A stretch of 64,000 nt of DNA from Providencia rettgeri (lineage in GTDB: Bacteria; Pseudomonadota; Gammaproteobacteria; Enterobacterales; Enterobacteriaceae), in assembly GCF_041075285.1 (NCBI RefSeq), contig NZ_CP163512.1:930001-994000 (forward strand), given 5' to 3'. The notes under the pieces were generated by a model, which saw only the letters and a program-made list of their open reading frames with translations, ran no database searches and was not told the DNA's origin. Below, piece by piece: positions 144 through 47,961 of this stretch. A program made the translations under genes and the position numbers. Within the stretch, counting starts at the first letter, position 1; the number at the start of each line of letters is the position of its first letter.

Positions 144-166
144 ACGAACTATTTAGAGCATTATAT

Positions 167-282
167 GAAGTTAGTACGCTATACGAAGTTAGTACGTTAC
201 ACGAAGTTAGTACATTATACGAAGTTAGTACGCTATACGAAGTTAGTACGTTATACGTAGTTAGTACGTTATACGAAGTTAG
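167..282. repeat. 18-bp tandem repeat array, 6 full units plus a partial
   Basis: Six head-to-tail 18-bp units of the form GAAGTTAGTACGYTAYAC run from 167 to 274, with a partial unit to 282. Each junction contains TATACGAAGTTAG or a close variant. Because 18 is a multiple of three the array stays open in frame (repeating LYEVST), which makes a spurious ORF here. Unit number differs after each palindromic element (6, 3, 0). Confidence 0.85.
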
Positions 283-309
283 CGTATTGAATGGTTTGTG
301 TTATTCCTT

Positions 310-398
310 GTTGTAGGGGTGTTGGCTTCTTTCAAGTCCTCGGGTCAGATACTTTTGTATGCTCCCCGAGATACTTTCAATCGCCGTCTACCGACAAC
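310..398. repeat. 89-bp palindromic element, copy 2
   Basis: Second copy of the same length; the internal hairpin lies at 339-370. The right end is CCGACAAC, one mismatch from the complement of the left end. It is preceded by a 25-29 bp segment (GAATGGTTTGTG...) that also precedes copy 3. Confidence 0.85.
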
Positions 399-421
399 AC
401 GAACTATTTAGCGCATTATAT

Positions 422-483
422 GAGGTTAGTACGCTATACGAAGTTAGTACGTTACACGAAGTTAGTACGTTATACGAAATTAG
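422..483. repeat. 18-bp tandem repeat array, 3 full units plus a partial
   Basis: Three units of the same 18-bp repeat (422-475) and a partial unit sit at the same distance behind palindrome copy 2 as the longer array does behind copy 1, so the palindrome, 21-bp linker, 18-bp array and 29-bp tail form one composite repeat. Confidence 0.8.
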
Positions 484-510
484 CGTACTGAATGGTTTGT
501 GATATTCCTT

Positions 511-599
511 GTTGTAGGGGGGGTGGCTTCTTTCAAGTCCTCGGGTCACATACTTTTGTATGCTCCCCGAGATACTTTCAATCGCCGCCTGCCTACAAC
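511..599. repeat. 89-bp palindromic element, copy 3
   Basis: Third copy, hairpin at 540-571, ends GTTGTAGG/CCTACAAC intact. It is followed only by a single partial 18-bp unit (623-630) before the tail segment. iscX starts 100 bp further on. Confidence 0.85.
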
Positions 600-698
600 A
601 CGAACTATTTAGCGCATTACACGAAGTTAGCATAGTGAATGGTTTGAACGAGCATCAATGTTACAAAATTGATCAGATAATCAAATTGGTGAGTAAAT

Positions 699-44664: not shown

Positions 44665-45056
44665 CGAGATTGCCTTAATTGCAAAACATTGTTTTTGAAG
44701 CGCTGAAGAGTTCACAGCCGAATAGATAAATGGCTACTGTATGCAACAGATTATGATAAATCGTGATGCGGTATAAAGCGTTATACCTGTGAAGTCAGTC
44801 AGCATTGCTAAAATGTGCCTCTATTCTATCATCCTGTGGTGATTCCTCAATCAAGTTATGAAGATACAGGGAAAGAAAATAAAAAAAGTGAAGCTAAAAA
44901 TAAAAATAAGTGAGAAGGGGGCGTTTATTTTCATTTTACAAAAGAATAAAAAGGAGAAATTATATAGGTAATTGATTAAAAAGGCAGCTTTTCAGGCGAA
45001 TATTGAAACATCTTGATTAATTTTGCAACGAACGAAAAAAATCTATCGAAAAAGCG
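44665..45056. other. Gap between gltX and the tRNA-Val operon
   Basis: About 390 bp, no ORF, A-rich on the plus strand. It should hold the gltX promoter (minus) and ends in the tRNA promoter. Nothing else recognised. Confidence 0.5.
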
Positions 45057-45084
45057 TTGACTCTGAACTCTGTATCCCTATAAT
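45057..45084 (+). promoter_or_regulatory. Promoter of the tRNA-Val/Lys operon
   Basis: TTGACT (45057-45062), 16-bp spacer, TATAAT (45079-45084), followed by a GC-containing discriminator; 18 bp before the first tRNA. Confidence 0.85.
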
Positions 45085-45102
45085 GCACCTCCATCGACGA
45101 CG

Positions 45103-45178
45103 GGGCGATTAGCTCAGTTGGTAGAGCACCTCCCTTACAAGGAGGGGGTCAGTGGTTCGAGCCCGCTATCGCCCACCA
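45103..45178 (+). tRNA. valU: tRNA-Val(TAC)
   Basis: 76 nt, anticodon TAC in CTTACAA, encoded CCA. First of three identical copies. Confidence 0.97.
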
Positions 45179-45204
45179 CCGTTGACGATAAAAACTAAAT
45201 GATT

Positions 45205-45280
45205 GGGCGATTAGCTCAGTTGGTAGAGCACCTCCCTTACAAGGAGGGGGTCAGTGGTTCGAGCCCGCTATCGCCCACCA
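45205..45280 (+). tRNA. valX: tRNA-Val(TAC)
   Basis: Second identical copy, 26 bp behind the first. Confidence 0.97.
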
Positions 45281-45311
45281 ATCATTTATAATGTGGTACA
45301 AGTCATGAAGT

Positions 45312-45387
45312 GGGCGATTAGCTCAGTTGGTAGAGCACCTCCCTTACAAGGAGGGGGTCAGTGGTTCGAGCCCGCTATCGCCCACCA
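45312..45387 (+). tRNA. valY: tRNA-Val(TAC)
   Basis: Third identical copy. Confidence 0.97.
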
Positions 45388-45423
45388 CTTCATTCATTAC
45401 TCACATAAAATGCTAGTTTAGAT

Positions 45424-45497
45424 GGGCGTTAGCTCAGTCGGTAGAATTATTGGCTTTTACAAGCTGGTTGCAGGTTCAACCCGAAGGGTAAGAAACT
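45424..45497 (+). pseudogene. Degenerate tRNA-Lys
   Basis: The 5' acceptor strand (one base lost) and D arm of tRNA-Lys are intact (GTTAGCTCAGTCGGTAGA), the anticodon arm is lost, and the second half (AAGCTGGTTGCAGGTTC, then CCGAAGG) matches the 112-bp repeats downstream instead of the normal tRNA. No 3' acceptor strand or CCA. It therefore joins tRNA-Lys and repeat sequence. Confidence 0.8.
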
Positions 45498-45521
45498 GTA
45501 ATTAGTTAACAATATTTAGAT

Positions 45522-45597
45522 GGGTCGTTAGCTCAGTCGGTAGAGCAGTTGACTTTTAATCAATTGGTCGCAGGTTCGAATCCTGCACGACCCACCA
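45522..45597 (+). tRNA. lysV: tRNA-Lys(TTT)
   Basis: 76 nt, anticodon TTT in CTTTTAA, encoded CCA. Position after valUXY matches E. coli lysV. Confidence 0.97.
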
Positions 45598-45636
45598 TCT
45601 AAGACAGTTAAGACAGTAAACACAAAGATCCCAGAT

Positions 45637-45712
45637 GGGTCGTTAGCTCAGTCGGTAGAGCAGTTGACTTTTAATCAATTGGTCGCAGGTTCGAATCCTG
45701 CACGACCCACCA
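45637..45712 (+). tRNA. tRNA-Lys(TTT), second copy
   Basis: Identical to the copy at 45522. Its CCA end runs directly into the first 112-bp repeat. Confidence 0.97.
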
Positions 45713-46268
45713 TCTCAAGTCTCCTTAAGTAAGCACGCAGTTGGTTAGCGATACCTCGACAAGCTGGTTGCAGGTTCGAGCCGAAGGCGAAATCCGTAGG
45801 ATTGACATCCTGCACGACCCACCATCTCAAGTCTCCTTAAGTAAACACGCAGTTGGTTAGCGATACCTCGACAAGCTGGTTGCGCCTTCGAGCCGAAGGC
45901 GAAATCCGTAGGATTGACATCCTGCACGACCCACCATCTCAAGTCTCCTTAAGTAAGCACGCAGTTGGTTAGCGATACCTCGACAAGCTGGTTGCAGGTT
46001 CGAGCCGAAGGCGAAATCCGTAGGATTGACATCCTGCACGACCCACCATCTCAAGTCTCCTTAAGTAAGCACGCAGTTGGTTAGCGATACCTCGACAAGC
46101 TGGTTGCGCCTTCGAGCCGAAGGCGAAATCCGTAGGATTGACATCCTGCACGACCCACCATCTCAAGTCTCCTTAAGTAAACAAGCAGTTGGTTAGCGAT
46201 ACCTCGACAAGCTGGTCGCAGGTTTGAGCCGAAGGCGAAATCCGTAGGATTGACATCCTGCACGACCC
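45713..46268 (+). repeat. Five 112-bp tRNA-Lys-derived tandem repeats
   Basis: Units 45713-45824, 45825-45936, 45937-46048, 46049-46160 and 46161-46268 (last lacks ACCA). Each has a 24-nt spacer starting TCTCAAGTCTCC, then 88 nt equal to tRNA-Lys from GCAGTTG to the CCA end but with an insert in the anticodon arm and a 27-nt insert in the T loop (GCCGAAGGCG...GATTGAC). Each unit closes with ATCCTGCACGACCCACCA, the true tRNA 3' end. No unit has the 5' acceptor strand or D arm. Units 2 and 4 differ from 1 and 3 by CGCCTTCG for CAGGTTCG, which makes a perfect 8-bp hairpin with CGAAGGCG. Confidence 0.95.
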
Positions 46269-47667
46269 TGTGTCGATAAATTGGCTTAATTAGCTAGACT
46301 GCACGTAGCGTGTGAGAAGAAAACTGTACACTGATCTGGACTGAGAAAGGAATAACGATAATTCTCATAAAAGCTTCCCAATAAAAACCAACAACAATTT
46401 ATTTTTTAGTACTGACAGAAACATATGATCAAAGCTTGGGTAGTGCTTTATAGGATAGAAAGTATTTAGCTTTTGAACAAACCACAGTGGGTTAATCGAT
46501 AAAATCACTACAAGTAATATTAGTGAATTTTTATTCTATAGATTGAGCTTTAATTAGTCTGTTAGCTGATGTATTTATGTAAATAACGACTAGCTAATAC
46601 CAAAAATAACGTAAATATTCGATTTTTTCTTTGGTTATCGCTCCAATAGTGATTTTTTTATTACCATATTTGAGATATTAGGTGATTTATTTTAAATGCG
46701 ATCAGTGTACCAATCTATATTGGAGTATCCAATAAAGATTGCTCTGTGGATTGCTGCTTAAATATACCTTGCTAGATTAATAACAGTACTAAAGTATAAC
46801 AATAAGTCAGAATATCATTATAATAAACATGGGTAATTTAAAGTTTGGATTAGGGGGGAGGGTATTTCTTGAAGTAAAAGCCTGTTAATTTAAAAATTAT
46901 CAATGTTAAATATTAATCATCTTCATCTGAAGATAAAATTAACAATATTAAAATTAGATAATCCAATAGGATTACTTTGTCATATTTTTGTGATGTCCAT
47001 CAAGTAAAGTGAATAATAAACTTCCTTAACGTTATGTTTTTGTTATGTTGAACATTGTGAATGGGTAAATTTTTACCGTGCTACTTTAAAAATTTAGCAT
47101 TTCCTCTAAAGGTAACACACTATGAGTTGTTGTATGTTATTGATATTTAATGACGCTAAAAAATAATAGAGGTAAAATTTATTTTTTTTACTATTATTTA
47201 CAGATATAAATGATATTGAATCATTTTTTATTCATTAAATGATTATTTACTATTAAAATCATTAAAAATGTTACAGTGTTAAATTATTCTGTTTATTTAC
47301 TTTATTTTTAGGTTATGCATCTAGAAAACACTATTTTTTTAGTGTAATATTTTATTGATTTCTTGTGACACAATTAATATGTGTAAGTGATGGGTGAGCC
47401 TTTATATCATAACACTATGATATTTATGGTATAATTTTATTATTTCTGCGAGGTAAGTGCCTCGTAATGTTCTGTTACATAGTTGTAACATCACTTTAAG
47501 ACTAGTTGAAACTCATTAGATTGCTAGTATATCATTCCTATCGATATATGCGGGATCGTCAGCGCTATTATCAAAGCAATACTTATTATATAAAAGATAA
47601 AAATAAAAAATGCAGTTACGTATCTGCTAATTTTATTTCATTAATATAAATTGAAGCGAGAATGTTT
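46269..47667. other. 1.4-kb AT-rich region without genes
   Basis: No ORF of useful length on either strand; strongly AT-rich, likely an H-NS target. No terminator recognised for the tRNA array. Just before the HTH gene are two small stems, CGAGG/CCTCG (47450-47465) and GTTAC/GTAAC (about 47474-47490). A 14-codon ORF at about 47122 has no support. Confidence 0.5.
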
Positions 47668-47961
47668 ATGAATACAAAATATCCTGTCGCTTGTGCAGTC
47701 GGACAAAAAATTAAAACGCTAAGAAAAGCTCAAGGTTATACTGTGTTTCAGTTAGCCAAAGAGATAGATATTAGTGAGCAACAATTATTTCGTTATGAGC
47801 GAGGTGTTAACCGTATTGACATTGATTGTTTGGTTCGCGTATTAAAAGTCTTAGGTGTTAATATGGGTGAATTTTTTAGTGAAATACTACAAGATGATGC
47901 TCAGCAAGATGAAAGAAGAGATTCAAAAGGATTTGATGACGCGATCTATTCCTTAGTATAA
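47668..47961 (+). CDS. MrpJ-like XRE/Cro-type HTH regulator
   Basis: 97 aa, one helix-turn-helix domain (about residues 10-65: VGQKIKTLRKAQGYTVFQLAKEI then SEQQLFRYERGVNRI). The form, a short protein with an SxQQxxRYERG recognition helix and an acidic tail, is that of the MrpJ family, which in Proteus sits at the end of fimbrial operons and switches between fimbriae and motility. No fimbrial genes are adjacent, so it would be an orphan member. The ATG at 47668 has the better spacing to GCGAG than ATG 47662. Confidence 0.75.
   Translation: MNTKYPVACAVGQKIKTLRKAQGYTVFQLAKEIDISEQQLFRYERGVNRIDIDCLVRVLKVLGVNMGEFFSEILQDDAQQDERRDSKGFDDAIYSLV

Follow-up and report, generated by a model that had tools for sequence, protein, structure and literature searches.

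Among the systems that resemble the locus described here, the closest is the tyrT operon of Escherichia coli, which is followed by 178-bp repeats known for the rtT RNA; transcription there terminates in a Rho-dependent manner, and the transcript yields an rtT RNA of approximately 171 nt. To our knowledge, RtT has been known for decades at this one E. coli operon, and we know of no settled function for it. One study also lists rtT RNA with the variable-number tandem repeats by which two Salmonella serovars can be told apart (PMC2658671). Two other families invite comparison, namely tRNA-Lys itself or a pseudogene of it (RF00005) and the YrlA or Y RNA-like family (RF02553), whose likeness to the present units lies in tRNA-like D and T arms.

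Here we describe a tandem array behind a tRNA-Lys operon in a 64,000-nt stretch of the Providencia rettgeri contig NZ_CP163512.1 (hereafter the window), and compare it with its counterparts in the genus and with RtT units across the order sampled, which we take to be Enterobacterales. Like the E. coli repeats, the window units stand in tandem directly behind a tRNA operon, carry as their tip the 3′ end of the resident tRNA with its CCA (4/5 units), and have two small 3′-proximal hairpins with mostly GNA loops before that tip, the sequence link for this last likeness running via a 123-nt type of unit only. They differ in being 112 bp long, with two hairpins and without the 5′ arm and GAGAA motif of RtT, and in their host, which is tRNA-Lys, whereas at E. 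coli tyrT it is tRNA-Tyr. Among the papers listed in searches of a CC-licensed library, none concerned RtT arrays at tRNA-Lys.

The array and its operon

The window operon, with three tRNA-Val and two tRNA-Lys genes (Table 1), is presumably the counterpart, by gene order, of the E. coli gltX / valUXY-lysV region; upstream and on the opposite strand lie two tRNA-Ala genes and a 490-aa ORF recognised by eye as gltX. Since 10 promoter-like sites were found in the region against 9.0 expected, the one listed ahead of the operon is a consensus match only. A consensus scan of positions 44900-47700 returned a single terminator-like site, at 47447, so there is no obvious transcription stop before the array. 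The array (45713-46268) lies directly 3′ of the second tRNA-Lys, and TRF reported a head-to-tail tandem at 45695-46268 with a period of 112, 5.1 copies, 96% matches and a score of 1071, so that the five-unit array first noticed in a sequence-only reading is real. That reading had all five units tipped with CCA, which is correct for four of them, the fifth being cut at GACCC.

Table 1. Positions of the tRNA operon, the repeat units and associated features in the window
Feature	Position	Strand	Remark
Promoter-like site of the tRNA operon (TTGACT, 16 nt, TATAAT)	45057..45084	+	11/12 consensus letters
Three tRNA-Val(TAC) genes and spacers	45103..45387	+	
Degenerate tRNA-Lys-like sequence with one hairpin (ACCCGAAGGGT) at the T loop	~45424..45490	+	29-nt match to the array at 93%
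tRNA-Lys(TTT) 1	45522..45597	+	
tRNA-Lys(TTT) 2	45637..45712	+	Source of the 3′ end copied by the units
Unit 1 (112 bp)	45713..45824	+	Leader, decayed D/anticodon part, T arm and insert, tip
Unit 1, T-arm insert (27 nt)	45780-45806	+	Two hairpins
Unit 1, tip	45807-45824	+	18-nt tRNA-Lys 3′ end with CCA
Unit 2 (112 bp)	45825..45936	+	GCGCC variant, CCA-tipped
Unit 3 (112 bp)	45937..46048	+	Identical to unit 1, CCA-tipped
Unit 4 (112 bp)	46049..46160	+	GCGCC variant, CCA-tipped
Unit 5	46161..46268	+	Truncated tip (ends GACCC, without CCA), then unrelated sequence

The T arm, acceptor 3′ strand and CCA of the units are tRNA-Lys sequence, but they differ from a tRNA-Lys in that the 5′ acceptor strand is absent from all window units and the T loop holds a structured 27-nt insert, flanked by GCAGGTTCGA and ATCCTGCACGACCCACCA. 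In these respects the make-up given by the earlier reading stands; the part ahead of the T arm, which it had assigned to the anticodon arm, also resembles a decayed D arm, and in some congeners reads CTCAGTCGGTTAGC. In units 2 and 4, GCGCC replaces the T-stem strand GCAGG, so that two T-stem pairs are broken and an 8-bp hairpin, CGCCTTCG-AGC-CGAAGGCG, is created. Neither ARAGORN nor the RF00005 model called the array as tRNA, a complete cloverleaf being absent from it. The YrlA model gave a sub-threshold match (41.8 versus 69 bits) over the pair of normal tRNA-Lys genes, outside the array, and was rejected. Protein coding was rejected as well, because none of the periods 112, 142 and 173 can be divided by three and the frame is lost through those arrays. 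Elsewhere in the window (161-630), 18-bp tandem units (TTATACGAAGTTAGTACG) lie within a 201-bp duplicated block, and 12 letters of that unit equal what we take to be a loxP arm.

The other tRNA-Lys operon of the same genome (L036) has three tRNA-Lys calls. Two identical tRNA-Lys-like copies separate the second from the third; they retain the 5′ half, carry a two-hairpin T-loop insert and have lost the 3′ acceptor strand. The third is followed by a single 109-bp sequence that matches a unit at 98% and has a decayed tip. tRNA-Lys-like copies with one or two T-loop hairpins, some of them with the 5′ half, were also seen at L039, L065, L071, L081 and L083, and pseudo-tRNAs resembling the degenerate window copy at 45424-45490 are present in congeners too. 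Such copies are possible ancestors of the short units, and those of the L036 type suggest that the short units may have begun as a tRNA-Lys gene with an insert in its T loop.

Relation to the RtT family

We searched 13 genomes of the genus (the own genome and 12 others) with the Rfam RtT model (RF00391; gathering threshold 45 bits). Matches over the threshold were found behind tRNA-Lys in 4/12 of the other congeners searched (G003, G011, G014 and G023), nine of them scoring 80.7-105.5 bits and one 50.1, and the rtT parallel drawn by the sequence-only reading was thus a good lead, closer than it had supposed. The matches in G011 and G014 include units of 171-173 nt, those in G003 and G023 are last units with a decayed tip, and in G014 units of RtT length alternate with short ones within one array (171, 102, 171, 102). 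G021 had two matches, below the threshold, and the own genome had none. A window unit scored 15.2 bits against the model (E 0.87), under the 45-bit threshold, so that it falls outside RtT by the Rfam definition and we infer its descent via intermediates.

The inserts of the different unit types were compared with those of RtT-type units, using shuffles that preserve letter counts only. When the insert of a short 123-nt unit is aligned to the 3′ half of one RtT-type unit, 26/27 bases agree, a score reached by 0/500 shuffles, and this type aligns to positions 67-130 of the RtT model (20.2 bits, E 0.068, below threshold). The 142-nt type gave a weak result (10/500 shuffles reach its score), the 102- and 129-nt inserts were not above shuffles (107/500 and 298/500), and the window insert is no closer to the RtT-type inserts than shuffles are (244/500). 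The link of the window to RtT would therefore run through the 123-nt form, and since it is indirect it slightly lowers the odds of the identity given below. In congeners the RtT matches occupy the same Lys operons, which argues that the window array probably belongs to this family rather than being the independent case at another tRNA that had been proposed. We thus regard it as highly probable that the array consists of short RtT-like units in tandem, which belong with the tRNA-Lys operons of Providencia and have their origin in the RtT family. The short Providencia form is a class that the Rfam RtT model misses.

Distribution and evolution in Providencia

The earlier reading had named absence or random occurrence among close relatives as an outcome that would speak against it, and this is not what the genus shows. 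Across the tRNA-Lys operons of 24 Providencia genomes, own included, units were found behind one or both operons in 22/24, likewise counting the own genome, and both operon types have units in 13 genomes. At least one CCA-ended unit is present in 21/24 genomes (tip scan, 2 mismatches allowed), and 86/90 units in the genus are CCA-ended; G019 gave zero units by the tip scan, and the stretch of one further genome reads N (1/24 unscorable). There are 0 to 6 units per locus, with lengths of 86, 102-113, 123, 128-134, 142-143 and 170-173 nt and one of 365. The middle of this 365-bp unit (L080, in G021) is a long run of 6-bp repeats, TTCAAG and then TGCAAG. A looser pattern scan of the species collection returned 8 stretches, all from Providencia, a stricter array pattern returned zero matches in the same collection, and a plasmid search using the array gave no match.

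The arrays evolve in concert: units of one array share a mean identity of 92% (119 pairs), units from the two loci of one genome 83% (112 pairs), and units from matching locus types of different species 68% (1862 pairs). In G007 and G016 (L049-L051, L068-L070), the 3′ end reads CCCGCACGGCCCACCA in seven called tRNA-Lys genes, and the unit tips of these two genomes carry the altered end, 4/5 exactly and 1/5 off by one base. The G007 units lie at a contig end, in a fetched piece without a tRNA, and their tips carry G007's own altered tRNA-Lys end.

Structure of the short module

We aligned 35 distinct modules of 65-66 nt from 20 fetched loci and the window. The T stem, lengthened by GGUU/GACC, surrounds two hairpins whose loops are mostly GNA, and in this comparative structure 96.8% of 665 cells are paired, versus at most 45.3% in slid versions. 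Double-changed cells number 53 against a shuffled mean of 18.5, in counts of a kind that related rows inflate, and the covariation score is 0.270 versus 0.128; two of the five covariation measures, the pairs with double changes and the further pair types, are not above the shuffles, 90/500 and 341/500 of which reach them. RNAalifold, unaided, recovered 17/19 of the comparative-structure pairs. Three window units were folded singly, and their folding was no better than that of shuffles (z -0.8 to -1.4), with minimum-energy folds that differ from the comparative structure. As judged from the alignment, the short module holds two covarying hairpins in the T loop. A model built on this module hit 186/394 genomes of the order, a spread that we rejected because the listed matches outside the own genome are nearly all of 38 nt and approximately 40 bits, that is, plain tRNA-Lys ends; among the matches listed, scores above 43 bits occur only in the own genome.

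Tips and arms of RtT units across the order

RtT matches were found in 84/394 genomes of the order, 64 of them over the threshold. The E. coli matches listed stand beside tRNA-Pro and tRNA-Tyr and are labelled 'RtT sRNA', so these places are already annotated. From the better-scoring matches listed, 100 stretches were fetched, 99 of which have a tRNA call, and 98 loci were examined after removal of 2 that repeat one array; further overlaps may remain among these 98, and loci that share a genome or clade do not count as independent. The tip copies a tRNA of the same stretch (15-nt tip, at most 2 mismatches) in 83/98 loci, by tRNA 29 for Lys, 25 for Pro, 15 for Tyr and 14 for Ser. One of the 15/98 loci without a copied tip follows a tRNA-Arg and has a decayed tip.

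The arm that precedes the GAGAA motif was compared with the tip in the 82/106 long units with the strict motif, the other 24 being dropped. It pairs with its own tip at 337/410 outer positions (82%) versus 56% with the tips of other tRNAs, and when the 44 distinct combinations are counted the figures are 160/220 (73%) versus 52% with other tRNA types. By tRNA, the pairing is strong for Tyr (106/110) and Ser (56/60) and weaker for Lys (100/130) and Pro (75/110), and another arm-tip test gave the same trend, with Lys weak.

Units of approximately 100 nt with three hairpins, RtT-like and shorter than the 130-position Rfam model, were also observed between tRNA genes in Lys-Val operons of other genera (L156, L188, L191, L193, L194, L198 and L201).

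It is possible, though less likely than not, that RtT as a whole echoes tRNA tails throughout the order, as a structured element found behind five or more kinds of tRNA gene that would copy their 3′ ends and re-tune its arm and would have shrunk in Providencia to the two-hairpin T-loop form. It would in that case be a tRNA-mimicking end module that channels the termination and 3′ processing of tRNA precursors.

Leaders and stop signals

Units were sorted into terminal and internal ones, an internal unit being one that another tRNA gene follows in the operon. An intrinsic terminator was found in 60/160 terminal units (raw scan count), and a further 86/160 have a C-over-G excess of at least 10 in 60 nt, a value also seen in 10% of background stretches. 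Either a terminator or a C-rich leader resembling a Rho site is thus present in 146/160 terminal and 0/32 internal units, or 87/95 versus 0/22 when counted by locus. At the Pro and Ser loci the core stands behind an intrinsic terminator in 31/32 and 13/13 terminal units, respectively. Among the Providencia arrays, 24/32 lie above the 99th background percentile for C-over-G and 8/32 miss it, versus 0/29 of the operon parts above it; three Providencia 123-nt units that precede a tRNA-Val are not C-rich, as expected if the signal belongs to the operon end. The window leaders are borderline: over 78 nt their C-over-G maximum is 10, a value that 6.8% of background attains, and over 60 nt they give 9-10, at the edge of the threshold. 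One study describes rut sites as C>G bubbles and cites reports that Rho regulates tRNA genes (PMC9160355).

A stricter scan found an intrinsic terminator within 300 nt of the last tip or tRNA in 1/41 loci (49 fetched, minus 7 with Ns or short ends and 1 without a tRNA); it scored 0/19 for the tRNA-Ala operon, which is therefore not usable as a positive control. The terminators in Pro, Ser and some Lys units were detected with a slightly looser scan.

Possible roles of the units

We tentatively favour, as a plausible reading of these sequence patterns and one that falls somewhat short of an even case, that each unit is an end-of-operon cassette combining a stop signal in the leader with a mimic of a tRNA 3′ end for trimming. 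The leader would stop RNA polymerase running out of the tRNA operon, presumably through Rho at the Lys operons of Providencia and at Tyr operons, and through an intrinsic hairpin at the Pro, Ser and some Lys operons. On transcripts that had passed an earlier stop, the core (T arm, hairpins and CCA) would fold as a tRNA-3′-end mimic, halt 3′ exonucleases and leave a defined CCA end. Transcription of the window array itself is presumed here, and its tandem copies would provide redundancy, their number growing or shrinking by recombination. The leader may also be only the operon's own terminator, repeated as it sits between copied tips. Internal units keep the core without either stop signal, so the core alone would not be a terminator, and behind the intrinsic terminators of the Pro and Ser loci, where little RNA is expected, its presence counts against the cassette. 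The keeping of the core in these two situations is the main difficulty, and it leaves room for a role in RNA processing, for a trans-acting RNA or for an element acting at the DNA level.

The processed units could be stable small RNAs of the rtT kind that act in trans, as decoys for the enzymes of tRNA 3′ ends or as sponges; the multi-copy arrays, the covarying structure, CCA tips that copy the resident tRNA even where that tRNA has changed, and the 'RtT sRNA' label on the E. coli matches listed would all suit such a role. We nonetheless consider it unlikely, given that the units lack the 5′ acceptor strand, that their number per locus ranges from 0 to 6 within the genus, that the Pro and Ser cores lie behind an intrinsic terminator, and that nothing was found pointing to a particular target. 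Improbable too, in our judgement, is that a decaying copy of a tRNA was duplicated in tandem in a largely neutral way, with recombination between tRNA 3′ ends keeping the copies alike. The concerted evolution of the arrays (92%, 83% and 68% mean identity), the tRNA-like pseudo-copies with T-loop inserts close by and the truncated last units are what such a process would leave behind, but it accounts poorly for compensatory changes in both hairpins, for 5′ arms that track the resident tRNA, and for the presence of units in 22/24 genomes of the genus and of RtT matches in 84/394 of the order.

The tip, being an 18-nt tRNA 3′ end that starts in the T loop, could moreover be a duplicated attachment core, in which case the units would be remnants of integrase-type attachment or decoy landing sites, consistent with their direct-repeat layout and with cores that in some cases stand behind terminators. 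Against this, no integrase was seen by eye among the up to three ORFs (at least 120 aa) within approximately 2.6 kb downstream of each Providencia locus, where most ORFs are found again in other species and phage-like genes occur at one locus; a tRNA call is present in 99/100 fetched stretches, and the arms covary with the resident tip, so that we hold a DNA-level element of this kind to be very unlikely.

Significance for the RtT family

The feature is real, conserved and structured, and represents a new, short version of a family that is known but little understood; the short class of the window shows a gap in the coverage of the Rfam RtT model. What is most striking is the way in which tips and arms match the tRNA of their own locus. 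Units that do so at Tyr, Pro, Lys and Ser tRNAs are natural experiments on whether selection acts on the tip, the arm or the stop signal, and RtT-type units suggest a role, open to testing, at the ends of tRNA operons.
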